A stretch of DNA of 23,435 nt, from positions 1 through 23,435 of the IMG/VR virus record IMGVR_UViG_3300047372_000205. One strand, written 5' to 3'. The position numbers and the translations under genes are program-made. Positions 4,973 through 23,435 of the stretch are shown here, piece after piece. A model generated the notes under the pieces. The model worked only from the letters and a program-made list of their open reading frames with translations. It had not been told where the DNA came from and ran no database searches. The DNA comes from a virus. Numbering within the stretch: position 1 is the stretch's first letter; every line of letters begins with the position of its first letter.

Positions 4973-5350
4973 TTATATGTTAAACATTCCGCCTTCCGAG
5001 CTACCGTTATTGGTGTTAATCTTATCCATAGAAAGTGTATTTTTATATTTCTGTGGATGTAGTTTATTCCAACCCTTAGCGTAACCACGCTTTGCTATTT
5101 CTGTAAAATATGCAAATGCATTAGTATATTTAGGATTGAAGTTTCTCCAATACTTTAATAGGTCTAAAATAGCAAATTGTAGACAATCATTTTTATCATC
5201 TGAATTTAGATATACTAATCTATTTATTGCTCTTTCAGCCAGAAGTATTAACATTTTCTCTGCGTCGGGCGTTAACTTATCCGCCTCTTTTGAGAGAACA
5301 ATTTGATCGTATAGATCCCTATTGTTTAAGTAATTCTTTTTTCTTGGCAC
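4973..5350 (-). CDS. gp55: Late-transcription sigma factor gp55
   Basis: A 125-residue protein resembling T4 gp55, the sigma-70-superfamily subunit that directs host RNA polymerase to late promoters. Matching elements are YLNNRDLYDQI at 7-17 (T4 has YVNNKELLQAI), a region-2-like core with DDKNDCLQFAILDLLKYWRNFNP, then TNAFAYFTEIAKRGYAKGW. The latter corresponds to the NPHAYITQACFNAF helix of T4. It is much shorter than T4 gp55 (185) because the C-terminal part is reduced; it ends GGMFNI, a hydrophobic tail that could replace the clamp-binding LDFL tail of T4. It heads an operon with gp4 and the 198-residue gene, separated from the gene upstream by a terminator. No late motif precedes it, as expected for a gene needed before late transcription starts. 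Confidence 0.82.
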   Translation of the reverse strand: MPRKKNYLNNRDLYDQIVLSKEADKLTPDAEKMLILLAERAINRLVYLNSDDKNDCLQFAILDLLKYWRNFNPKYTNAFAYFTEIAKRGYAKGWNKLHPQKYKNTLSMDKINTNNGSSEGGMFNI

Positions 5351-11879: not shown

Positions 11880-13196
11880 TTAAATGCTATGAATGCTAGA
11901 AGTACTAATATCTTCTGTTTCTATTAATCGCATAAAGTTATAGTCAACATTCAACTTACATTTATTTCCTTTACCCTCACCATCTCTAATCTTAAGTACC
12001 TTTAACCAATACTCTTGGTTAGCACGCATTAAGTCGTCTTGAATAATACCAAGCATTACGTCAGCTGTATGTGAAAGACCTGCAGATTCTGCAACGTCTG
12101 ACATGGAAATATCTGAAGAATTATAGCCGTTTCTGTTTATTTGAGTTGCTGTGACGATCAACCAATTGTTACGAATACCCATAGCACGAAGGTCCTCTGC
12201 AATTTGCTTGATCTTCATATATGTATTCTCCGTATTTTGGTTACGATAATTGGCTAAGATGTTAATATAGTCAATTACAACTGCGCCTACTTTAATCTGT
12301 AACTCCTCTTCTATTTGTGCAACGTAAGCTTCAATATCTAAGACTGTAGCTTGTGATGTTGGAAATTGTTTTACATAAAGATTTCCAGGTGGAGTAAATC
12401 CATCTCCAACCGTTTCTAATCTTCTTTTAATGTGGTCTCTATTTTTTGCCTTCTCAGCATAATCATTAATATTAATATTAAGAAGGTTCGAACCAATTCT
12501 TTTTACAAATTTATGGGCTGCCATTTCCGCAGTAATTACTACAGTATTAGTTCCCATCTTAACAAAGTTAGCTGCGTCGTTTGCTAAGTAAATAGATTTA
12601 CCAATATTCTGTTCACCAGCATAAACTACAAGGTTACCGCCTTTGTCATAACCACCGCCTAACATTCTATCTAAGAAATTGTAACCTGTACTAACTTTCT
12701 CAGATTCTTTCTGGTCGTGGGCATCAAAATCAAAGAAGTTAAGACCAAGATCAGAATTAAATGTTAGGTTATTTCTATCGTTAATTAAACCCTTTACTTT
12801 GGTTACGATAGCTTCTACGTTTTCTGGATTAACATCAGTGGTTTTAATATACTCAATTGTATCTGTCAATGAGTTATTAAACGTTCTCCACTTAATCCAA
12901 GCTTCTGCAGTATTAGTTAGCCACTCTTCATCGTATTTGTCTAGGTCTACATCAAAGATCATATCTAAGATACCATCTGAAACTCTCTCCTTAGACTTAG
13001 GATGATTTTGAACTAATAACTTTAAATTCTCTCTAGTTGGAGTCTCATTAAATTTAGCATAGAACTTATTAGCTAAAAAACTTAAGGCATCAATTTCTTC
13101 TGAAGTATAGAAGTTAAATTTAATTGCCTGTAGGTATTTTGGCTTCTCTAATGAGAGTCTAAAGAATATTTTTTCAAAGTCTTGTCCGAACTGCAT
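11880..13196 (-). CDS. gp41: Replicative DNA helicase gp41 (DnaB-type)
   Basis: A 438-residue protein with a short helical N-terminal domain (1-150) and a RecA-fold core. Seen are STGYNFLDRMLGGGYDKG (169-186), Walker A GEQNIGKS (194-201), the TAEMA segment (222-226) used by DnaB-family enzymes, Walker B VVIDY (306-310), and a TATQINR then SAGLSHTADVMLGI stretch. The length is close to T4 gp41 (475). It would unwind the fork 5' to 3' as a hexamer. No primase gene is visible in the window. The 2OG oxygenase gene ends 14 bases upstream and the 144-residue gene follows after 17 bases. Confidence 0.93.
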   Translation of the reverse strand: MQFGQDFEKIFFRLSLEKPKYLQAIKFNFYTSEEIDALSFLANKFYAKFNETPTRENLKLLVQNHPKSKERVSDGILDMIFDVDLDKYDEEWLTNTAEAWIKWRTFNNSLTDTIEYIKTTDVNPENVEAIVTKVKGLINDRNNLTFNSDLGLNFFDFDAHDQKESEKVSTGYNFLDRMLGGGYDKGGNLVVYAGEQNIGKSIYLANDAANFVKMGTNTVVITAEMAAHKFVKRIGSNLLNININDYAEKAKNRDHIKRRLETVGDGFTPPGNLYVKQFPTSQATVLDIEAYVAQIEEELQIKVGAVVIDYINILANYRNQNTENTYMKIKQIAEDLRAMGIRNNWLIVTATQINRNGYNSSDISMSDVAESAGLSHTADVMLGIIQDDLMRANQEYWLKVLKIRDGEGKGNKCKLNVDYNFMRLIETEDISTSSIHSI

Positions 13197-13789: not shown

Positions 13790-14085
13790 TCAAATGGGTT
13801 AATTAAGATTTTAAAAGCCTCTTTACCAGGCTCTTCATTTGTTTGTTCACATAAACCTAATATTACCAATTCTTTTGCAGATTCTAAAATTTTATCTGGA
13901 TCTGATTCTGGGAATCTATAAGTTTTTAATGCGTGGTAGGTAAAGCTACCTTTATATCTGTCAGGATTTCTATTGCAGAGTTTTACTTCAGCTTGTAAAA
14001 CGTCTAGCGCCGTAGGATAATCTGGTAGATCTTTTTCTATCCCTAGGATATACTTGATCGGCAGTTTATCTTTATTCAACTTCAT
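13786..14085 (-). CDS. Small protein, unrecognised, possibly winged-helix
   Basis: A 99-residue protein with no family I recognise. The C-terminal half, helix-rich and followed by GLCEQTNEEPGKEAFKILI, could form a helix-turn-helix with a beta wing, but this is only a secondary-structure guess. It overlaps the end of uvsX by 14 bases and the oxygenase start by 4 bases, so it is part of the same operon. A recombination accessory role is possible; it does not resemble T4 UvsY. Confidence 0.7.
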   Translation of the reverse strand: MKLNKDKLPIKYILGIEKDLPDYPTALDVLQAEVKLCNRNPDRYKGSFTYHALKTYRFPESDPDKILESAKELVILGLCEQTNEEPGKEAFKILINPFE

Positions 14086-15187
14086 TCTCTGCTTCTAGTA
14101 ACTCGTCTACGTTTAGCTCTCTATGTTCAGTGCTATAATTGAATATTGGCTGAATTCTCTTTTCAATCTTTTGTAGAATCTCTTCTGTAAATACTTTGCT
14201 AGTAAAGAATTCTGCATTAGGAACTGCTTCGTCTAGGTGTTTACAAATCCAGCCTCTTGCAGTGGCCTTAGGTGTTTTAACTCCCTTTTCAATACTACCT
14301 TTTGCAATACCTATTTCTTCCCAATCAATATATTGTTCTAGGCCAACATATCTGTTCATACCTTCTGTAAAATGTAAGTGGAACTTAATTGGATGTGGTT
14401 TTGCAAATCTGTTTTTATTTGGTTTTGCAGTTACAATAATACCAGTCTTTTCACCGCCCTCTTTAAGTTGTGCTTTACCTAAGAATAAAACTATTGAAGC
14501 TGCATATTCTGGTCCAGTACCACCACCTGCTACCGTTTGTGAAATAAACGATTGTGTTTGGTATGTGTGATTAGTAAAGATAAATGGTATTTTAAGATCT
14601 GCTAAAGGCGTCATAATAATTCTAAAGATAGACTTTAAGATTTTAGATCTAGTCATATCTGATTTTTCAGAACCGGATTTAGCATCTTCAATTTCTTTTG
14701 CAGTTGCTAAGTTACCAGCTGAATCTAAGATAATCATTACTTTAGGAGTTTCACCACCAGCTCTTTTTACCTCTTGCATTTTAGAAGTAATCGTAGTTAC
14801 TGATTGGCGAAAATCTTGTACTGTATTACATGGTTGGTAATTGACTTTATTAGTATCAATACCAAACTTCTTCATTAGCTCTCTATCAACTGCTGCTTCT
14901 GAATCATAAAAGATAACACTATAACCCATATCAATTGCTCTTGCAATCGAGTTTAAGATTAAGTATGTTTTACCAGTTCCTGAAGGACCCGCAATCGAAC
15001 ATGATCTATTGTTAGGCCATCCACCAAATAGTGAACCACTAACACATGCGTTTAAATGATAATTACCAGTATCGATCCATTCTGTAACTTCACTAAAGCT
15101 AGAATGTTCCATAACTGAACCTAGCGGATTAATATCTGCTAATTCTTTATTAATGTCATCAAAACTAAATGATTTCTTTTTTGCCAT
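14072..15187 (-). CDS. uvsX: Recombinase UvsX (RecA-like)
   Basis: A 371-residue RecA-family ATPase. It shows Walker A GPSGTGKT (67-74), the catalytic-Glu segment FYDSEAAVD (Glu97), Walker B MIILDSAGN from 151, the NHTYQTQSF segment and a Gly-rich loop GGGTGPEYAAS typical of DNA-binding loop 2 in UvsX. It would form filaments on ssDNA and drive strand invasion for recombination-dependent replication and repair. Length is close to T4 UvsX (391). The C-terminus is acidic (ELLEAENEVE), as in RecA. An AT-rich leader resembling that of the clamp gene precedes it. Confidence 0.92.
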   Translation of the reverse strand: MAKKKSFSFDDINKELADINPLGSVMEHSSFSEVTEWIDTGNYHLNACVSGSLFGGWPNNRSCSIAGPSGTGKTYLILNSIARAIDMGYSVIFYDSEAAVDRELMKKFGIDTNKVNYQPCNTVQDFRQSVTTITSKMQEVKRAGGETPKVMIILDSAGNLATAKEIEDAKSGSEKSDMTRSKILKSIFRIIMTPLADLKIPFIFTNHTYQTQSFISQTVAGGGTGPEYAASIVLFLGKAQLKEGGEKTGIIVTAKPNKNRFAKPHPIKFHLHFTEGMNRYVGLEQYIDWEEIGIAKGSIEKGVKTPKATARGWICKHLDEAVPNAEFFTSKVFTEEILQKIEKRIQPIFNYSTEHRELNVDELLEAENEVE

Positions 15188-15645: not shown

Positions 15646-16854
15646 TTAAAATAATGCTGATGCGTAGATCAGGTTAGTGTCTAATGTTTGTAGTCCAATT
15701 GCTTTCAATACTCTATTAAGTGGATCTATCATACATTTTTCAAATTGTGTATCAAAATCAACTTGTGGTGCAATCTCATAAGGATGTTCACCTGGTAGAT
15801 ACGCATAAACTTCTGAGATTGGTGTTTTACAGTTGTAAATTTTTAACTTCTCACCATTACCAATTACTTTATACTTATTCTTATATTTTTGATTTTGATT
15901 TAAAATATAATTATAGTAGCCAGCTGCTTTTACGTTAGCTGGACATTTTAGTCCTACTTGAAATTCAATTTGATCGTCGACAATATACTTCTCAATATTA
16001 TTAGTTCTACGATTAAATGAAATGTCATCGACATCTGCTAGTTGAAATTCTTTTTTAGATGCTTTCATAAATGCAACTAATTCTTGTAATTCTTCAGCAC
16101 CGGGGGTTTTTTGTGATTTAAACAAAATCCTAAGCGCTTCTACTAATTTCTCTCTAGCAAATTTAGGAGTTGAGGATTGAATAGTATCAAATCCAATGGT
16201 CTTTACTTTCTTTAGAGACTTATGTCTATCAGTAACTTCTAGTTTATCGTCCCAAGCAATGTTTTGAATATACTTTTTCTTTGACATCCAAATACCATTA
16301 TATGCTAAAGATTCTAATTCAAAGAATAAGAAGTTATCTGTATTTCTAGTATCAGCATACTTCTTCATACATGCTGTAATATAATCCTTAAGTCTAAATG
16401 CATAGAATGCTAAGATAAACTCATCAAGTGGTAGAGCTTTAGTGTCATCATTCCAAACAATAGTTTCATATAGATCTTGAAACTGTACGTAACAAGAATC
16501 TGTATCAATATAGATTACTGCAGGCTTTTCAACTTTACCTTTTACTGTTAAGCCGAATTGCTCATGTACTTTAATATCTTTATGCCAAAACTCTTGACAA
16601 TACTTATTTAAGATAGACTCAGAGTAGAGGATAGCGTTTTTACCCTGTTTTGTAATAGACTCTGCAATATCTATATTAAAGAAGTGAAACCATTTGTTAC
16701 CGAATGCACCATAGATAGAGTTAAGAGTTAATTTTACTGCTTGTTCATAGGCAGTATATTTAGCAGACATCTGCTTGTAGTGATCTACAAGCAGCCCTGC
16801 CTCTTCTCTACTAAGTTGATCGATAGGTTTCTCAGTGAGTTTTGTTATATCCAT
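15646..16854 (-). CDS. gp43B: DNA polymerase, C-terminal half (split gp43B)
   Basis: A 402-residue protein carrying the second half of a family B polymerase. Motif B is KLTLNSIYGAFGN, with Lys41, Asn45, Tyr48 and Gly49. Motif C is YIDTDS at 115-120 with the catalytic Asp pair 117 and 119. KKKYIQ follows, then the thumb. The protein begins about 40 residues before motif B, at the tip of the fingers, and ends YASALF, which could be a clamp-binding tail like the DMFDF end of T4 gp43. It has no exonuclease domain and no motif A; those are in the gene at 20738-22144. The two add up to 870 residues, near T4's 898. The ATG follows the clamp stop after one base. Confidence 0.93.
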   Translation of the reverse strand: MDITKLTEKPIDQLSREEAGLLVDHYKQMSAKYTAYEQAVKLTLNSIYGAFGNKWFHFFNIDIAESITKQGKNAILYSESILNKYCQEFWHKDIKVHEQFGLTVKGKVEKPAVIYIDTDSCYVQFQDLYETIVWNDDTKALPLDEFILAFYAFRLKDYITACMKKYADTRNTDNFLFFELESLAYNGIWMSKKKYIQNIAWDDKLEVTDRHKSLKKVKTIGFDTIQSSTPKFAREKLVEALRILFKSQKTPGAEELQELVAFMKASKKEFQLADVDDISFNRRTNNIEKYIVDDQIEFQVGLKCPANVKAAGYYNYILNQNQKYKNKYKVIGNGEKLKIYNCKTPISEVYAYLPGEHPYEIAPQVDFDTQFEKCMIDPLNRVLKAIGLQTLDTNLIYASALF

Positions 16855-16855
16855 A

Positions 16856-17599
16856 TTAAGCCGTTTGGCAAGTAGATACTGTTAATAGTGTATTTGATTC
16901 TGTAGATTGGAATACTAACTTAGAGTCAGTAACATGTACTTTTTGTTCTTCTCTATCTAATAGGTTTAAGTACTTTTTGTAAACTGTTACTGCACCTTCT
17001 CCATTAGATTCTGGATTAATTACTGCATTAAATGATTTACCATTTACAGCAACACCTTTACCATTTGCTTTTACGCTAAATGTTTCTTCACTATCAAGTC
17101 CAAATAAATTCTTTACTTTATTGATAGTATGTGTATCAATGTTAAAGCTAAACTTAGTATTATCTACTGCGAAGATAGCGTCTTGTTGTGCTGGAGTTAA
17201 GTCTTTAAAACCTAATGAAGGTTCTGAACATGCAAGTGTAATTTCTAATTCATCATTAAACATTCTTAAAGATGATGCGATTAACTCGCCCTCTTGTTCA
17301 ATAAATTCTAACTCACCTTTAATAGCATCGCTTTCAAAGTGTTTAATAGCATCGATTACTTTTGAACCTTCAAAGAAGGCAACTTTCATTTCTGCATCTG
17401 TGTCTGGCCATTCGCTTACTTGGAAAATCTTATCACAGGCTACAGAATGTGATTTTACTGCATCTCGTTGTGGAAGATAAACCGCTGAGTGGATTTGGCC
17501 GTTTTGGATTTTCATATAGACAAAAGAGTCTATAAGCTTTACTCGGTTAATAAACCCAGTTAAAGCGTGTTGGTCAATTCGATCAATTTGTAGTTTCAT
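16856..17599 (-). CDS. gp45: Sliding clamp gp45-like
   Basis: A 247-residue protein, slightly longer than T4 gp45 (228). It shows the alternating strand-helix layout of a clamp: an N-terminal MKLQIDRIDQHALTGFINRVK start, acidic strands such as LEFIEQEGELIASSLRMF, and then a second-domain pattern FSFNIDTHTINKVKNLFGLDSEETFSVKANGKGV typical of a helix followed by beta strands. There are no catalytic motifs. It lies directly before the polymerase C-terminal half, as the gp45-gp43 neighbourhood in T4 would suggest, and after a terminator. The clamp would tether polymerase and, in T4-like phages, also activate late transcription. The similarity is structural, so confidence is moderate. Confidence 0.7.
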   Translation of the reverse strand: MKLQIDRIDQHALTGFINRVKLIDSFVYMKIQNGQIHSAVYLPQRDAVKSHSVACDKIFQVSEWPDTDAEMKVAFFEGSKVIDAIKHFESDAIKGELEFIEQEGELIASSLRMFNDELEITLACSEPSLGFKDLTPAQQDAIFAVDNTKFSFNIDTHTINKVKNLFGLDSEETFSVKANGKGVAVNGKSFNAVINPESNGEGAVTVYKKYLNLLDREEQKVHVTDSKLVFQSTESNTLLTVSTCQTA

Positions 17600-17608
17600 C
17601 TAAATATA

Positions 17609-17631
17609 TTTTTGTTTGATTGTTATATTGG
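17609..17631 (-). promoter_or_regulatory. Shared leader element before the clamp gene
   Basis: Minus strand ATATAACAATCAAACAAAAA, matching the element before uvsX with one inserted base. It follows the terminator at 17659-17688, so a promoter for the clamp-polymerase operon is expected at or near here. Confidence 0.5.
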
Positions 17632-17650
17632 TAAGTTACTAGTTGTTTCA

Positions 17651-17688
17651 TAAAAAGTGAGGCCAGGAAGTAGCGAACCCCTGGCCTC
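17651..17688 (-). terminator. Terminator after nrdA
   Basis: A perfect 9-base-pair stem, GAGGCCAGG (17659-17667) with CCTGGCCTC (17680-17688), followed on the minus strand by ACTTTTT. Its high GC stands out from the surroundings. It ends the nrdB-nrdA transcript before the clamp gene. Confidence 0.85.
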
Positions 17689-17691
17689 GAT

Positions 17692-17730
17692 CCGAGAACT
17701 ATCTCGGTCCTAAGAAGTGGACTTAACCAC
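17692..17730 (-). other. Two further hairpins between nrdA and its terminator
   Basis: CCGAGA/TCTCGG with a 4-base loop (17692-17707) and GTGG/CCAC with a 6-base loop (17717-17730). With the terminator they make three adjacent stems in the nrdA 3' region. They could stabilise the mRNA end or belong to a structured RNA. I see no tRNA fold. Confidence 0.5.
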
Positions 17731-17740
17731 AACTGGAATA

Positions 17741-19561
17741 TTAACCGTCACATGCGACGCAATCTGGGTCTGTAGCGGCTGCGGCAATATCGCCTCTTAG
17801 TACAGATTCAGTTCGCATATAATAAAGTGTCTTCACTCCCTCTTTGTAAGCCTCTAAGTGTACTTTATTAATAAACTTAGTATCAGCCTCTTTTGGAAAT
17901 GCTAGATTTAAACTTACAGCCTGGTCAACATATTGTTGTCTAACACCAGCCTGTTTTACTAAATCTAGTTGATTAATTTCTTTAAATGTCTTAAAGATAT
18001 TCTTTACTGGAATATAAAGATCTTTATCTTTCTCTTCTAAATTATCAAATTTAGTCAGAGTAATTATATTATCTTTATCTAAAATAGAAGTGGCTAGTTT
18101 TACATAATAGTCTTCAATAAAGTCTAGTCCTTGTACAGAACCTCCGTCTTCTAAAATTTTATCCCAAGTTTTCTTAGAGTTTCTATTGATTAATTTTAAG
18201 AATTGCTCTAATACTGGATTCTTTCTAATAAAAGTACCCTTTGCTGTTTGTTCTGTGAACACGTTAGCAGCCCAAGGCTCAATACCTGCAGATACATTAC
18301 CTGCTAGTTTTGAGTTGCTTACAGTTGGTGCCACGGCTCTCAGGTGAGTGTTTCTCATTCCTGTATTAACACACCATAGAGGTTCGCCATATTCATGTGC
18401 CATATCTCTAGATGCCTTTTCACTTTCCGTCTTTAACTGCGAAAAAATCTTGCGAGTCTCAAATTGAGCTGATAAGCCTTCAAATGGAATACCTCTTTCT
18501 TGTAAATAAGTATGCCATCCTAAAACTCCAAGTCCTAGAGCTCTACCCTTTTCTGCAGATCTTACTGAGTTCTCAAACCCTCTCATGAATTTTGCTTTCT
18601 GAATAAATTCATCTAACACTCCATCCAGGAACCAAGTTGCTGTATAAACTAAATCAGTATCTTTCCACTCATCATATTTTGCTAAGTTAACTGAGGATAA
18701 ACAACAAACAAAAGAGTGAGACTCATCTGTATGTAGAGTAATTTCAGAACAGATATTAGTCATATAAACTTTTAATCCGTTTTGTTTATACGCTTCTGGG
18801 TTTGCTCTATTAATATTACCTTTGAACATTACATAAGGCTCACCAGTTGCTTTTCTCTTTCTAAGTACTGCAACCCATCTTCTTCTAGCCTCTTTATCTC
18901 CAGCGTCAATCTTTTCCATAAAACCATCAGGTACTACAACACATTGATGTAGGTTTAAAGATTGTCTATTGACATCTCCCTTTGGTTCTCTAATTTCTAA
19001 CCATTCCCAGAAGTCACCATGTTCAATATCGATATTGACAGATGCTGCTCCTCTTCTCACTGAACCCTGGTTCGTAGCCAAGATTGTTGAGTCATAGATT
19101 TTAGTAAATGGAACTACACCATCTGATGTACCATTACCGGTAATCTTACTACCTGCTGGTCTGATTTGATTAATACCGATACCTACGCCGCCTCCATGTT
19201 TTGCTAGCAACATCATCTCTAAGTTTTTAGATCCAATGTCGTGGATAGAGTCTGCTACGTCGATACCAAAACAAGAAATAGGTAGTCCTCTTTCTAGTCC
19301 TGTATTAGATAAAACTGGAGAGGCTAGGTTCAGCCAGCCTTTCCAGATATAATCAAAAAATTTGCTTGATAATTCAGGTTTACCTAAACGTCTTGCTACT
19401 GTGGTTGAAACTCTCCAGTATGCGTCTTTTGGTTTTTCATCACCAAATAGGTAACCTGCTGATATTGTTTTAACATAAACTTCGGTGTTTGCCCAAAGTG
19501 GAAAGTCCACTCCCAGTTCCCAACCGAGATGTTCTCCGTGGTTTTTTATTTTGTCTGCCAT
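17741..19561 (-). CDS. nrdA: Ribonucleotide reductase large subunit NrdA (class I)
   Basis: A 606-residue catalytic subunit. Seen are the active-site Cys in SCFG (Cys97), the radical-transfer triad NICSE (Asn269, Cys271, Glu273), CCLSSVNL with the partner Cys (286/287), KHGGGVGIG, the YY pair in LYYMRTES and a C-terminal redox pair CVAC. It reduces ribonucleoside diphosphates to dNDPs with NrdB. It is much shorter than E. coli NrdA (761) and starts close to the substrate-binding core, so the N-terminal ATP-cone that mediates dATP inhibition appears absent. It follows nrdB after 9 bases. The assignment is firm. Confidence 0.95.
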   Translation of the reverse strand: MADKIKNHGEHLGWELGVDFPLWANTEVYVKTISAGYLFGDEKPKDAYWRVSTTVARRLGKPELSSKFFDYIWKGWLNLASPVLSNTGLERGLPISCFGIDVADSIHDIGSKNLEMMLLAKHGGGVGIGINQIRPAGSKITGNGTSDGVVPFTKIYDSTILATNQGSVRRGAASVNIDIEHGDFWEWLEIREPKGDVNRQSLNLHQCVVVPDGFMEKIDAGDKEARRRWVAVLRKRKATGEPYVMFKGNINRANPEAYKQNGLKVYMTNICSEITLHTDESHSFVCCLSSVNLAKYDEWKDTDLVYTATWFLDGVLDEFIQKAKFMRGFENSVRSAEKGRALGLGVLGWHTYLQERGIPFEGLSAQFETRKIFSQLKTESEKASRDMAHEYGEPLWCVNTGMRNTHLRAVAPTVSNSKLAGNVSAGIEPWAANVFTEQTAKGTFIRKNPVLEQFLKLINRNSKKTWDKILEDGGSVQGLDFIEDYYVKLATSILDKDNIITLTKFDNLEEKDKDLYIPVKNIFKTFKEINQLDLVKQAGVRQQYVDQAVSLNLAFPKEADTKFINKVHLEAYKEGVKTLYYMRTESVLRGDIAAAATDPDCVACDG

Positions 19562-19570
19562 AATTTAATT

Positions 19571-20572
19571 TTAGTCGAATAAGTCGTCTTCGTCCCAGTT
19601 TTCACCTTCGCCAGCTTTAGAATAATCTGTAGATCTAATAGCGAAGAAATCTGTGTGAGTATGACCACCAGTTAAGTGATAGAACCAATCCAGTTCTCCA
19701 GCAGAATCTTCATCGTAATCGAATGCTGGTTCGTAACCAAGCTCTTGTAACTTTTCGTTAACTCTCTTAGTGATAAAGTTCTTAAGGTCTTTAGCTTTTA
19801 AGTTATCTAGATCTCCTTGTTCGAACATCTTATCGATAAACTTATGCTCTAATTCCTTAATAAGCTCTCCTGCTTTTAATACGTCGGCTTGTACTGATTG
19901 TTTCAATTCTGGGAACTCTTCACACATGTGTCTAAATAATCTACATCCCATTCTAGAGTGTAGAGATTCATCTCTAACTGACCATTTCATTTGTTGTCCA
20001 ACACCTTTTAATAAGTTTCTCATTTGGAATGAGTATAAAACTGCAAAAGAACTATAAAGTGAACAACCCTCTGCAAACGCCGAAAAAATCGCAAGAGATC
20101 TAGCAACCTCTTTCCTAGCGGTCGCATTAAACTTCAAATCTTCGTGAGTATACGGAGCTGTAGTAGCTGTTAATAGTTCAAATTTATCTGCAGTTGCAGG
20201 TTCATGTAAAAATGCTTCAAAGTCTTCAAGACCTAGTGTCTCGTTTAAGTACGAGTATGCTGTTGCGTGGATAGTTTCCTGCGAGCCAAACATCATTGCC
20301 ATCTGTTTGATTTCATGTTTTGGAAACCAAGTTGTAACATATTGAGTCCAGTAATCTGATACAGCACATTCGGTTTGAGCAAAACCTAATAGGATATTAC
20401 CTACTAAGTGTTTTTCGTGAGGTAAAAGATTTTCATTCCAATCTTTAACATCACCTTGCATTGATATTTCAGTGTGTAACCAAAATGCTTGGGCTTGTTT
20501 TAGCCAACCTTCTGTATAATATTCTGGATATTCAAATGGTTTAAAGGCAATTCTTTCTGTGAATAATGACAT
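19571..20572 (-). CDS. nrdB: Ribonucleotide reductase small subunit NrdB (class I)
   Basis: A 333-residue ferritin-like subunit. Metal ligands fit the class Ia pattern: Asp41 or Asp44, Glu99 and His102 in ETIH, Glu168 in AFAEGC, and Glu202 and His205 in RDESLH. Tyr106 in AYSYL sits four residues after His102, exactly as the radical Tyr122 follows His118 in E. coli. The acidic C-terminus NWDEDDLFD is the expected NrdA-binding tail. It is the first gene after tandem terminators, so it needs its own promoter; the only close candidate lies within the preceding 165-base gap. Confidence 0.95.
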   Translation of the reverse strand: MSLFTERIAFKPFEYPEYYTEGWLKQAQAFWLHTEISMQGDVKDWNENLLPHEKHLVGNILLGFAQTECAVSDYWTQYVTTWFPKHEIKQMAMMFGSQETIHATAYSYLNETLGLEDFEAFLHEPATADKFELLTATTAPYTHEDLKFNATARKEVARSLAIFSAFAEGCSLYSSFAVLYSFQMRNLLKGVGQQMKWSVRDESLHSRMGCRLFRHMCEEFPELKQSVQADVLKAGELIKELEHKFIDKMFEQGDLDNLKAKDLKNFITKRVNEKLQELGYEPAFDYDEDSAGELDWFYHLTGGHTHTDFFAIRSTDYSKAGEGENWDEDDLFD

Positions 20573-20614
20573 TTGCTAATTCTTTATTTTTTATGGTTTT
20601 CTAATTAATTTAAT

Positions 20615-20632
20615 AAAAAGGTCTTTTAGACC
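20615..20632 (-). terminator. Second of two tandem terminators before nrdB
   Basis: GGTCT/AGACC stem with a 3-base loop (20620-20632), followed on the minus strand by TTTTT (20615-20619). Confidence 0.75.
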
Positions 20633-20652
20633 AAAAAAGGTCTTTCCGACCT
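20633..20652 (-). terminator. First of two tandem terminators before nrdB
   Basis: AGGTC/GACCT stem (20638-20642 with 20648-20652) with a 5-base loop, followed on the minus strand by TTTTTT. It lies 86 bases beyond the stop of the polymerase N-terminal half. Confidence 0.75.
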
Positions 20653-20737
20653 CATTTAACCTCTACTTAAACCTAATAAATTATTAGCAGCGCTGCTATT
20701 GATTTATATATCTTTGCGCTGCAGAAATTTATTGACT
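20653..20737 (-). other. Structured gap between polymerase N-half and the terminators
   Basis: Non-coding. On the minus strand it holds CTGCAGCGC, the late-type motif, the self-complementary AGCAGCGCTGCT (20687-20698), an AT palindrome CTAATAATTTATTAG and the repeated segment AGGTTTAAG / AGGTTAAAT. The GC-rich words stand out from the AT-rich background. No gene is visible. Confidence 0.5.
20704..20712 (-). promoter_or_regulatory. Late-type motif upstream of nrdB, ahead of terminators
   Basis: Minus strand AAAGATATATAAATC, identical in core to the virion-gene motifs and placed 26 bases after the polymerase N-half stop. The tandem terminators lie between it and nrdB, so transcription from here would give mainly a short RNA. 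Confidence 0.45.
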
Positions 20738-22144
20738 TTAGAGCTTAAATTTTTTTTCGATTTCATGCGCTTTTTCATAATATGTATAAGAAGTTTTCTT
20801 GTAGTCTTTTCTTTGATCATATAGATCTGCTAAAATCTTTTTAAGAATACTATCTTTCTTCTGATATACTACGCCATTCTCACAAACAATTACTGCTTCA
20901 TCTTTACGACGCTCAGCTATTTGCGATTCCTCTACCATTTCAACGAATGAATCGGGCGAGATATTAAACTGCCTCATGATGGATGGATATAGCGATGCAA
21001 AGTCAAATGCACTTACACCACCATAATATCCAACAATTGGTTGTTTAACAAAAGCACCCTCGTACTTACTATCCTTCTTACCATCTTCTCTATCGTATTC
21101 TACACCGATACGTTTACCCTGTTCGGTTAGTTTACGAGCCATTAGAGATTCGGTAACAGCCACTGGTGAAGCGGCTTTATATAATGGCATTCTAGTTATT
21201 GTTGCTAAAGTAAGCAGTACTTCCATCGATCTAAGCTTTTGATCGATATAGTAAACTAGACAGGAGTCAACCACATTATAGAAAACATACTTTTGAAAGT
21301 CGTTTTCATAGAGGTCTTGTAAGCTACCACTATATTGTATTTTACTTATACCCTCAAGGACTGCGCCAGAAACAAATGCTAATGCATTAGATTCTTTTAC
21401 TGCAACCGATCTATCATATTTATCGTACAATTGCATGTAGTCCAAAATACCCATGTGAAGTGGGCGAGAGTCTTTTTTATCAAGAGCGCCAGTACAAGCA
21501 ACTTCTGTTAAATCAATTTGTAAGATTTTACATCTGTTGACAATATACTGCCAGTCATAATTGATAAAGTTCCAACCTGTCATCATAGGAAACTTAGGTA
21601 AAAACTTATGCAAGAAAGCGTAGACCATGTCATACTCGTTCTTAAATTTGTAATAACTAAATTCCCAATCAGTATCATACCCATTAAAGTGAGCATTCGT
21701 ATCGGATTCAATCTTATTAATTTGATCGGCCGAAAGATCTTCTAGTCCAAGTACGATTGCTTTTCTTTCTGGAGTAATAATAGAAAAGGTTAAGATTCTA
21801 GACTTAGCCTCTTCAGGTTTCGGGAAGCCATCAACAATCTCTGTCTCAATATCGACAAAGTATGTTCGTGGCATATTGAACTCAAAGATTTCATCTTGAT
21901 CTTTTTGTGGTAGACCGTCCATGAAATAAAGAAGTGAAAACTTATTAAAAGATCTAGAGATAGACTTCTTAACATGGCGACCATCCCAGTTTCTAACTGT
22001 TGCGTCTTTCCATCTGTCGTTATCTTTAGCTACAACCCAGTTTTGAAACTTGTCAATGTTGTATCTTTTAAAGGCAACTTCACCTTGTTTATCGTAATAT
22101 GATACGATTACTTCTTTCTCTCTTTGTTCAATATCTAATAACAT
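20738..22144 (-). CDS. gp43A: DNA polymerase, N-terminal half (split gp43A)
   Basis: A 468-residue protein with the N-terminal and 3'-5' exonuclease domains and motif A of a family B polymerase. Exo I is YFVDIET (Asp98, Glu100), Exo II is WNFINYDWQY (Asp197), Exo III is YNVVD (Tyr289, Asp293), and motif A is DFASLYPSI (Asp381). After motif A it continues through QRKDYKK, the first fingers helix, and stops at KKFKL. Motifs B and C are missing here and are found in the gene at 15646-16854. No intein or splice signal is visible at the end, so the halves probably assemble as separate chains. The ATG overlaps the dUTPase stop by one base. Confidence 0.94.
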   Translation of the reverse strand: MLLDIEQREKEVIVSYYDKQGEVAFKRYNIDKFQNWVVAKDNDRWKDATVRNWDGRHVKKSISRSFNKFSLLYFMDGLPQKDQDEIFEFNMPRTYFVDIETEIVDGFPKPEEAKSRILTFSIITPERKAIVLGLEDLSADQINKIESDTNAHFNGYDTDWEFSYYKFKNEYDMVYAFLHKFLPKFPMMTGWNFINYDWQYIVNRCKILQIDLTEVACTGALDKKDSRPLHMGILDYMQLYDKYDRSVAVKESNALAFVSGAVLEGISKIQYSGSLQDLYENDFQKYVFYNVVDSCLVYYIDQKLRSMEVLLTLATITRMPLYKAASPVAVTESLMARKLTEQGKRIGVEYDREDGKKDSKYEGAFVKQPIVGYYGGVSAFDFASLYPSIMRQFNISPDSFVEMVEESQIAERRKDEAVIVCENGVVYQKKDSILKKILADLYDQRKDYKKTSYTYYEKAHEIEKKFKL

Positions 22145-22608
22145 TAATATCCTCGGTTTTGACGGTCATGGTTTTCTGCGTTCTTCGCCATGTACAAGTT
22201 AACAATATCTTTAGAAGTCATACCAATAGAAATTGCAAAGTTCATATAAAAGTGCAATCCATCGATCCATTCATAAAAGAGTTCTAACTTATCTGCCTCT
22301 GTCAAATCCTCGATCTTCATGTTCTCTGCTTCTTTGTGTGTGCTTTTCCAATACTTCCAAGCACCAGAAGCGATACCATCGTTGATGCCTCCTAAGGCAT
22401 CAAACATTTCATTTAGTTCATCACTCATTGCGTGTTTGTTAACACACCAGAAATCTGCAATTTGTTTTAAGTTCCAACCTGTAAAGTCAAAACCTAAACG
22501 CTTTTGTAGTTCTACCTGCTTATTGTAAATCAGGCCTAGTGTGTCGTCTGCTTCCGAGTGGAAATCTTGTACCTCGAGATCGGCACATTTATTATCTGCG
22601 TTCGCCAT
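22144..22608 (-). CDS. All-alpha dimeric dUTPase (dUTPase-2 / MazG superfamily)
   Basis: A 154-residue helical protein. The family pattern is visible: NKQVELQKRLGF, SDELNEMFDAL (Glu64, Glu67), WKYWK (84-88), the metal-binding EWIDGLHF with Glu113, Asp116 and His119, and the closing KNAENHDRQNRGY. This family hydrolyses dUTP (often dUDP too) to dUMP, keeping uracil out of DNA and supplying the thymidylate precursor. It is co-translated with the polymerase N-half through a one-base overlap (TAATG), matching its job beside DNA synthesis. The substrate could differ within the superfamily, but the closing motif favours dUTPase. Confidence 0.85.
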   Translation of the reverse strand: MANADNKCADLEVQDFHSEADDTLGLIYNKQVELQKRLGFDFTGWNLKQIADFWCVNKHAMSDELNEMFDALGGINDGIASGAWKYWKSTHKEAENMKIEDLTEADKLELFYEWIDGLHFYMNFAISIGMTSKDIVNLYMAKNAENHDRQNRGY

Positions 22609-22637: not shown

Positions 22638-23435
22638 TTACTTATCTGTTTCAAGTTCTTGTCCCCAATCTCTATAAGAATCTGTTAACAATTTTGTGTT
22701 AATATCTTTTGGTTTGGGATCTCCACCCACATTCCAAAACCAGGCACCAGGACTTCCATGCTTTGTCATGAACTCCCAAGCCTTCGCATCGTAATTCATA
22801 GCCGATGGAAATGGTGGATTATATTGTGGGTCTACATCTTGTGTAAATGCCTTTGGATGTGACCAAATAGTTGCAATACCTCTTTCACCCTTCTTAATAT
22901 TTCTTGCTACTGCAACTCCATTAAACTTAGCATCAGGCCAGGCTATTTGCAAAGACCTTTGTAGAACGCCAGTGGATATTGCTGACCATACTTCTTCTGG
23001 ATAACCATGTTTCTCTGCAAGATCATGTGCGACCTTCACAGCGGCTGCTGTAACCAATTCATGGCGAAGTCCTAAAGGAATAAAAAATGCATTGTTTGAC
23101 TCTGCCCATTTCTTAGCGTGAGCATTTAAGACTGGCATTGCTGCAATTCTCTTAAATTTCATTTCAGCTCCCATCTCAACACAAATGGCTTGGTGGTCTG
23201 AAATCTCTTTTTGACTTGGACTAAATAGTACAAGTTTCTTATTATACTTCTTTGCTAAATAAGCAAGTGAGATACCTGCAAATCCATATCTAGGTTGAAC
23301 ATAGACTAGAGTATCTTGTTTACAAGTACTAACTAGAATATCTCCAAATCTACACTTAGAACCAAAACCCATTAGGTCTTCTCTGACTACTTTAAATCCA
23401 TCGTGGTCTACTAATTGTGGAGCCTCAAATGGATC
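22638..23435 (-). CDS. PLP-dependent fold-type II enzyme (5' end off window)
   Basis: Open from the window edge for 266 codons; the start lies outside, because the frame continues upstream of the first internal Met (23372) with family sequence. VVREDLMGFGSKCRFGDIL matches the PLP-Lys segment of ACC deaminase, cysteine desulfhydrase and TrpB-type enzymes (VxREDLxxxGxKxR), so the Lys in GSKCR is the likely Schiff-base residue. YGFAGISLAYLAKKY and a later ISTGVLQRSLQ fill the places of the substrate-binding and phosphate-binding loops, though the usual Gly/Ser-rich GSGGT is altered. The substrate is unknown. It ends 30 bases before the dUTPase start. A catabolic, amino-acid or nucleotide-modification role are all possible. 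Confidence 0.72.
   Translation of the reverse strand, partial: DPFEAPQLVDHDGFKVVREDLMGFGSKCRFGDILVSTCKQDTLVYVQPRYGFAGISLAYLAKKYNKKLVLFSPSQKEISDHQAICVEMGAEMKFKRIAAMPVLNAHAKKWAESNNAFFIPLGLRHELVTAAAVKVAHDLAEKHGYPEEVWSAISTGVLQRSLQIAWPDAKFNGVAVARNIKKGERGIATIWSHPKAFTQDVDPQYNPPFPSAMNYDAKAWEFMTKHGSPGAWFWNVGGDPKPKDINTKLLTDSYRDWGQELETDK

Follow-up and report, generated by a model that had tools for sequence, protein, structure and literature searches.

The question raised by the virus record IMGVR_UViG_3300047372_000205 of IMG/VR is whether two genes that lie 3,883 bp apart, with ribonucleotide reductase (RNR) and sliding clamp genes between them, encode a single DNA polymerase. We analysed the complete record, a 23,435-bp fragment of an incomplete genome (hereafter the window), in which the open reading frames (ORFs) of 43A (468 amino acids, aa) and 43B (402 aa) add up to 870 aa. 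Very probably their products form a single replicative polymerase of family B (PolB) and T4 type (gp43-like), as two subunits that would meet without splicing. To our knowledge, split replicative polymerases are scattered cases, most of them attributed to a homing element or intein close by. The two-gene polymerase described here is real and old; its kind is known, but its form is wider and cleaner than in the descriptions we found. Every gene from 43A to the gp41-like helicase lies on the minus strand, and the features that carry the argument are the following:

20738..22144, minus strand: 43A, N-terminal half of the family B DNA polymerase, 468 aa, with the N-terminal part, 3'-5' exonuclease, palm motif A and first finger helix
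21839-21856, 21551-21571, 21263-21280 and 20981-21004, minus strand: Exo I, Exo II, Exo III and motif A of 43A
20573..20737, minus strand: region between 43A and nrdB, where two short hairpins (20653-20637 and 20632-20620) are each followed by a T run
19571..20572, minus strand: nrdB, RNR small subunit, 333 aa (Pfam PF00268, 6.7e-57)
17741..19561, minus strand: nrdA, RNR large subunit, 606 aa (Pfam PF02867, 6.5e-89)
17659..17688, minus strand: nrdA/clamp hairpin resembling an intrinsic terminator, 11 pairs, 7 of them G-C
16856..17599, minus strand: sliding clamp of PCNA/gp45 fold by predicted structure (AlphaFold2, Foldseek), 247 aa
15646..16854, minus strand: 43B, C-terminal half of the family B DNA polymerase, 402 aa, with the second finger helix and motif B, palm motif C, KxY and a C-terminal part with a final LIYASALF
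16708-16734 and 16495-16512, minus strand: motifs B and C of 43B

The spacings are 165 bp between 43A and nrdB, 9 bp between nrdB and nrdA, 141 bp between nrdA and the clamp gene, and 1 bp between the clamp gene and 43B.

In Pfam, 43A matches DNA_pol_B_exo1 (1.7e-10) and DNA_pol_B (1.4e-17, profile positions 26-137), and 43B matches DNA_pol_B (5.9e-16, profile positions 151-237); since the two DNA_pol_B spans are separate, the halves are complementary. They likewise share out phrog_262, the full-length gp43 family of 856 positions, at 101-495 for 43A and 495-841 for 43B, and PHROGs also holds families of the split halves, phrog_2062 (N-half) and phrog_1918 (C-half). The top solved chains are DNA polymerases, matched at residues 103-487 by 43A (E 1.8e-30) and at 552-818 by 43B (E 1.8e-19), and in blastp against RB69 gp43, residues 98-449 of 43A align with 114-486 (28% identity) and residues 41-321 of 43B with 560-818 (29%). 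Exo I-III and motifs A, B and C are all present across the two proteins, which places the pair in the T4-type gp43 family; residues D98, E100, D197, D293 and D381 of 43A are invariant in 20 aligned rows including the window, as are D117 and D119 of motif C of 43B in 17 such rows. The first-pass annotation of this DNA, which had described one 870-residue family B polymerase cut at the tip of the fingers, with the exonuclease motifs and motif A in one gene, motifs B and C in the other, and a 3.9-kb gap holding the RNR genes and the clamp, is borne out on each of these points: its coordinates and total are exact by the ORF list, and the motif positions, the complementary matches to Pfam, phrog_262 and RB69, and the content of the 3,883 bp (RNR genes by Pfam, clamp by fold) agree with it.

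The break site was taken from aligned helices and not from the printed alignment spans, in which MAFFT misplaced the free ends of the halves. Aligned with the intact polymerases of RB69, of the cyanophages S-PM2 and S-CRM01 and of Flavobacterium phage MaF61, 43A stops right after the first finger helix (QRKDYKK..., near RB69 residue 487) with about 20 further residues, and 43B starts about 40 residues ahead of motif B, at its own ATG and with a predicted helix. The cut lies between the two finger helices in the aligned split relatives and in Aeromonas phage 25 as well, and is of the 43A/43B type. From the likeness to gp43 we infer that 43A would contribute the N-terminal and exonuclease domains, the motif-A half of the palm and the first finger helix, and 43B the motif-B-bearing second finger helix, the motif-C half of the palm and the thumb. 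The finger helices of the two chains would pair and the palm would close non-covalently into an active polymerase, with no protein or RNA splicing, and the C-terminal tail of 43B could dock on the clamp encoded just ahead of it. Both genes are conserved: compared with the window, 43A shows dN of 0.045-0.104 and dS of 0.77-1.64 (six equal-length comparisons), and 43B dN of 0.032-0.128 and dS of 0.61-1.89 (12 of 38 comparisons listed), and both halves are near-constant in length among relatives. An AlphaFold2 model of 43B folded alone from a 17-row alignment was poor (pLDDT 49) and speaks neither for nor against the two-subunit polymerase.

The 247-aa ORF between nrdA and 43B has no Pfam or PHROG match and is a sliding clamp by its predicted fold. 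Its AlphaFold2 model, made from 18 rows (the window and IMG/VR; pLDDT 83, pTM 0.79), has the two-domain clamp fold, matches PCNA and DnaN clamps in Foldseek (PCNA 2.9e-10, probability 1.00) and superposes on T4 gp45 (1czd) with a Z of 18.1 and an rmsd of 2.8 over 208 residues at 8% identity. An hhalign comparison with a three-sequence gp45 alignment gave probabilities of 1.4% and 0.5%, the shallow alignments making this a weak test.

To see how far the arrangement extends, we used 159 related loci from two IMG/VR scans. The scans confirmed 305 and 223 places, and the best 80 of each were taken, with one locus in common. Some of the 159 loci share a contig and overlap there, and together they contain 56 non-identical 43A+43B pairs. 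43A was found in 141 loci, 43B in 143 and both in 125, and the 34 loci with one half end no more than 4.2 kb from that half on the relevant side. The order 43A-nrdB-nrdA-clamp-43B, for which the first-pass annotation had proposed to search other phage genomes, was found on a single strand in all 125 loci with the five genes, and is therefore due neither to chance nor to assembly error. The start of 43B lies -1 to 6 nt past the clamp stop codon in the 143 loci (3-10 in tblastn coordinates, which lack the stop). The gap between the halves is 3.7-5.8 kb in 64 loci with both; most of its variation comes from additional small genes between nrdA and the clamp, among which no homing endonuclease was recognised by eye, no family-library search of them being made. 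Among the related contigs, 17 were picked for their size (73-176 kb), and in every one of them PF00136 matches only the two halves, with no full-length PolB match. The split and its layout are thus not the unusual case first supposed, but an old, fixed state of the window's phage group, which is part of a large lineage of jumbo and huge phages; a clamp-like gene also lies between the halves in four distant phages (see below). With no mobile element at the break in this group, the stable split offers a natural test of how a two-chain active site is assembled and kept. In relatives (e.g. L011, L013, L038, L065 and L079) the set of small genes between nrdA and the clamp is variable and includes a 138-aa protein with a signal-peptide-like start. 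In locus L025 (12596-14406 and 19317-19890), tblastn breaks both nrdA and the oxygenase gene into two neighbouring pieces, probably because their reading frames are interrupted.

The genes of this block do not all share one history. Among the 56 non-identical loci, distance correlations are 0.89 for 43A/43B, 0.90 for 43A/clamp, 0.88 for 43B/clamp and 0.996 for nrdA/nrdB (Mantel p 0.001), against correlations with nrdA and nrdB of 0.31 and 0.29 for 43A, 0.17 and 0.14 for 43B, and 0.14 and 0.12 for the clamp (Mantel p 0.001-0.034). 43A, the clamp and 43B therefore share one history that the RNR pair does not, and the correlation with the latter is weak because two RNR types occupy the same slot. 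In 13 of the 56 loci the pair is of the second type, whose NrdB shares 30-32% identity with that of L011, which is window-like; a stretch of this second type, searched for as DNA at near identity, had no match in the 'phages' database. The second type occupies the following place:

L053:5827-8513, and also in L087: second NrdB-NrdA pair, in the slot between the polymerase halves

L053 and L087 are 93% identical in NrdB and 89% in NrdA, but 78% in 43A, 73% in 43B and 74% in the clamp, whereas L053 and L030 are 88% identical in both polymerase halves and 31% in NrdB. It follows that one RNR pair replaced another in the slot between the halves, with the replisome genes remaining as a set. The RNR type changes twice on the tree of 43A, clamp and 43B, the starred branches forcing two changes, and the swap thus took place at least twice. 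RNR genes are in this way exchanged between the halves of a polymerase that evolves together with its clamp.

That each half is expressed from a transcript of its own, as the first-pass annotation had it, is supported in part only. Terminator-like hairpins that pass the threshold of 13 are present in 30 of the 57 gaps between nrdA and clamp and in 19 of the 57 between 43A and nrdB, compared with 4 and 0 when each set was shuffled once by mononucleotide, and the window holds 9 terminator-like sites where 3.7 are expected. The window's own 43A/nrdB hairpin, however, scores 12, just below the threshold, and many relatives lack the hairpins at this threshold. The hairpins are suggestive of separate transcripts but short of proof. 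A sigma-70 scan of the window was uninformative (28 sites, 31.4 expected), and motif counts upstream of 43A, nrdB and the clamp gave no shared promoter apart from TATAAT, present upstream of the clamp in 34 of 56 cases as a raw count. The clamp and 43B are probably translated from one message because 43B follows the clamp at once; any separate dosage would therefore be of clamp plus 43B against 43A.

Beyond the IMG/VR loci, phrog_262 was searched against 11 named records and 16 large IMG/VR contigs, LR756503 having been excluded as a likely duplicate with the same listed coordinates as LR756501. The same split was seen in the named records and contigs, with the exception of MaF61, and according to the record fields it occurs in phages from seawater, sewage, silkworms and faeces, in records of 219 to 735 kb. 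The halves are 2.0-3.5 kb apart in Sphingomonas phage PAU, Chryseobacterium phage MA9V-2 and Tenacibaculum phage PTm1, about 10 kb apart on one strand in LR756500, and about 7 kb apart in reversed order (43B before 43A) in the Prevotella phage Lak-B2. In LR745206 (43A at 233 kb, plus; 43B at 131 kb, minus), LR756502 (254 kb, plus; 121 kb, minus), LR756504 (256 kb, plus; 538 kb, minus; 281 kb apart) and Lak-C1 (162 kb, minus; 391-394 kb, plus) the distance is 101-281 kb, and in LR756501 (90 kb, minus; 709 kb, plus) it reaches 618 kb in a 735-kb record deposited as linear. Six of the 16 large contigs have both halves, 41-171 kb apart and in four cases on opposite strands; the other ten, possibly fragments, have 43A only. 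Overall the halves are distant (at least 41 kb) in 11 records and on opposite strands in 9 of these, where separate transcripts are certain, and the halves must therefore meet as proteins.

A clamp profile widened by LR756500 and run on 1,273 ORFs from 20 loci recognised a clamp-like ORF between the halves of LR756500 (4e-98), MA9V-2 (8.4e-8), PAU (5.6e-7) and PTm1 (2.6e-6), the next best match being 0.045, in MaF61. LR756500 is itself part of the widened profile, and before widening the values were 7.6e-60, 1.7e-4, 2.8e-3 and 0.022, respectively. No clamp match was found in the stretches examined near 43A and 43B of Lak-B2, Lak-C1, LR745206, LR756501, LR756502 and LR756504, so that Lak-B2, with its halves 7 kb apart in reversed order, is an exception to the rule of a clamp between them. 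Among the huge phages, 43B can carry an insert after motif C (474-485 aa compared with 402; L106, L107, L273, L274 and L277), which is not seen in the window. In the 212-kb contig G034, 43A is in two pieces at 127218-128484 (L287, L296), possibly through a frame break or a sequencing error, and three contigs have separate exonuclease-like ORFs of 205-265 aa elsewhere (L293, L294, L295) that match only about residues 111-224 of gp43.

Some of these phages have cut 43B a second time, at motif C, which gives a polymerase of three genes in LR756500, PTm1, Lak-B2 and Lak-C1:

L003:29703-33118: second-cut 43B of LR756500
L005:11522-14328: second-cut 43B of PTm1
L008 and L115: second-cut 43B of Lak-B2
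L113 and L117: second-cut 43B of Lak-C1

After DTDS the first ORF continues as an intein-N-like stretch; the second opens with an intein-C-like stretch that has HNS at its end. PTm1 ORF239 matches Pfam Intein_splicing at 9e-8 (32.5 bits), below the family cut-off of 35.8, and the PTm1 record names an 'intein-containing split DNA polymerase precursor', so part of this picture was already known to annotators. In the window motif C is uncut.

Such ends in the polymerase of relatives, together with the ORF239 match, could be taken to mean that the two halves of the window are also joined, by a split intein (a fractured gene) or by trans-splicing of their transcripts. They lie at another site, however: 43A ends and 43B starts without intein letters, and the ends are not those of a fractured gene. 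Of the 143 43B matches, 142 have an unbroken motif C. The intein parts of LR756500, our sole intein query, had no match at E up to 1 in the window or at E up to 1e-3 in the 159 related loci, and Rfam gave no intron in the window, with 0 matches at gathering scores. We consider such joining scarcely likely, and the first-pass view that no intein or mobile element is left at the break agrees with these searches. It is also very unlikely that one or both halves are decaying remnants, with replication left to another polymerase. Such a gene could sit elsewhere, since the window is a fragment, the more so as jumbo phages of group 2.2 are reported in passages of PMC7824862 to have a split PolIII-like enzyme besides PolB; but both halves are conserved in the dN/dS comparisons, their catalytic residues are invariant and their lengths near-constant, and the 17 larger contigs hold only these two PolB parts, PolIII-type genes not being covered by that search.

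The unlinked position of the halves in huge phages might further suggest that they act separately, with an exonuclease or editing role for 43A and some other role for 43B. The family B palm active site requires motifs A and C together, and neither half has both, motif A being in 43A and motif C in 43B; moreover, the cut falls within the fingers and not at a domain border, which leaves separate action hardly credible. As for an assembly artefact or mis-joined contigs, suspected for any metagenomic source, the same order in 125 of 125 five-gene loci and the same type of split in the sequenced isolates PAU, PTm1 and MA9V-2 refute it, and we give it practically no weight. Several points do count against the two-subunit polymerase. 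The correlation of 43A with 43B would also follow from shared descent of the replication module, the clamp correlating equally well; the proposed contact between 43B tail and clamp presumes a likeness to gp43 tails; the literature passages found hold no biochemistry on the jumbo split lineage; and the incomplete genome of the window leaves room for a further polymerase there.

The origin of the split was approached with trees of 43A and of 43A+43B (39 rows, 868 columns), built by a quick method, with the meeting of long branches flagged in both and with phage 25 placed by 43A only. One long branch (3.2-3.5, SH-aLRT 100) separates MaF61 and the 34 jumbo split rows from RB69, Aeromonas phage 25 and two cyanophages, and phage 25 groups with the intact RB69 (SH-aLRT 99 and 100), apart from the jumbo split rows and thus without a common origin with them. 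These positions make the jumbo split and the Aeromonas split separate events, and a single origin of the jumbo split is likely, though unproven. MaF61, with an intact 994-aa polymerase (L007:3944-6928), sits on a very long branch in or next to the split clade; forcing it outside all split rows costs 5.3 log units (p-AU 0.193), a topology that is neither rejected nor shown, and it may represent either the ancestral intact gene or a re-fusion. No relatives of its polymerase were found in viral_contigs, and a search with PAU 43A had as its sole match one record at 100% identity.

Gene order offers a further indication. The cyanophage order is 43-uvsX-gp41 in S-PM2 and 43-uvsX-oxygenase-x-gp41 in S-CRM01, and that of the window is 43B-x-x-uvsX-x-oxygenase-gp41, with these genes downstream of 43B:

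14072..15187, minus strand: uvsX-like recombinase, two small ORFs after 43B (phrog_97, 7.3e-61)
11880..13196, minus strand: gp41-like DnaB helicase, further downstream (Pfam DnaB_C, 4.1e-23)

43B thus stands where the whole gene 43 stands in S-PM2 and S-CRM01, so that 43A looks like the displaced part. We lean, with moderate confidence, towards an account in which a permanently two-subunit family B replicase with the clamp gene between its halves is ancestral in a broad jumbo/huge lineage and goes back to a single finger-tip break. The clamp would have stood beside 43B, which kept its cyanophage-like position before uvsX and gp41, and the space between the halves would have served as a slot in which whole RNR pairs were swapped and the replisome was left as it was. 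Later the halves would have drifted to distant, often opposite-strand sites in the largest genomes, and some lineages would have recut 43B with a split intein into three genes. Including the Lak-B2 exception lowered our confidence in this account slightly.

The closest described system is that of the Aeromonas phages 25 and 44RR, whose split gp43 (43A/43B; Petrov et al. 2010, as cited in passages of PMC2988022) had been mentioned in the first-pass annotation; phage 25 is cut at the corresponding place, and its 43A and 43B are said there to co-purify and to have polymerase activity. Like the window, phage 25 has a T4-type PolB cut between the finger helices, but its halves, separated by less than 0.9 kb, flank a homing endonuclease gene and have the clamp gene outside, and its 43A, 47% identical to that of intact RB69 and grouping with it, indicates an origin independent of the window split. 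In the stretch of Aeh1 examined no feature is annotated as gene 43. PAU, MA9V-2 and PTm1 resemble the window in tree side, finger cut and a clamp-like gene between the halves, but have no RNR pair there by annotation and profiles; PTm1 differs also by its second cut with split-intein-like ends, and MA9V-2 by a gene annotated TnpB between the clamp-like gene and 43B (L006:11693-12859). LR756500-LR756504, LR745206 and the Prevotella Lak phages share the finger cut and the tree side, whereas the polymerase of the Lak phages and LR756500 is in three parts. Rhodothermus phage RM378 also matches T4-type PolB in two distant genes, 57 kb apart, but is cut between the exonuclease and polymerase parts (phrog_262 336/379) and not in the fingers:

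L279 80145-81146: RM378 polymerase match
L280 22149-22853: RM378 polymerase match

Outside phages, the archaeal PolB of Methanobacteriales and of Nanoarchaeum equitans is likewise in two genes, which in passages of PMC4104785 the authors link to intein excision or intein trans-splicing. The jumbo phage Pseudomonas phage MIJ3 has its PolB in two ORFs with a split intein, as described in part of PMC6892783, whereas the window cut has none. Elsewhere, passages report a split DNAP in OM43 phages (PMC10580990) and polymerase genes often split by endonuclease genes in Jug phages (PMC12363816), and the jumbo overview describes PolIII alpha as split in group 2.2, its passages on PolB mentioning no split (PMC7824862). 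The arrangement of the window is not described in the passages of the literature searched, which included PMC4360716, PMC2993671, PMC9123017, PMC10423840, PMC10189870 and PMC13282480. A split of this type can mislead annotation that expects a single polymerase gene.

Directly upstream of 43A lies:

22144..22608, minus strand: dUTPase/MazG-like pyrophosphohydrolase (PF08761, 9.2e-8; phrog_173, 9.5e-20)

Upstream of it, a threonine-dehydratase-like ORF at 22638-23372 (PHROG match, 6.7e-39) is an unusual phage cargo, and a match to a gp55-like late sigma factor (phrog_234, 2e-10) is found at 4973-5350, near portal, head-closure and DNA-end-protector genes.

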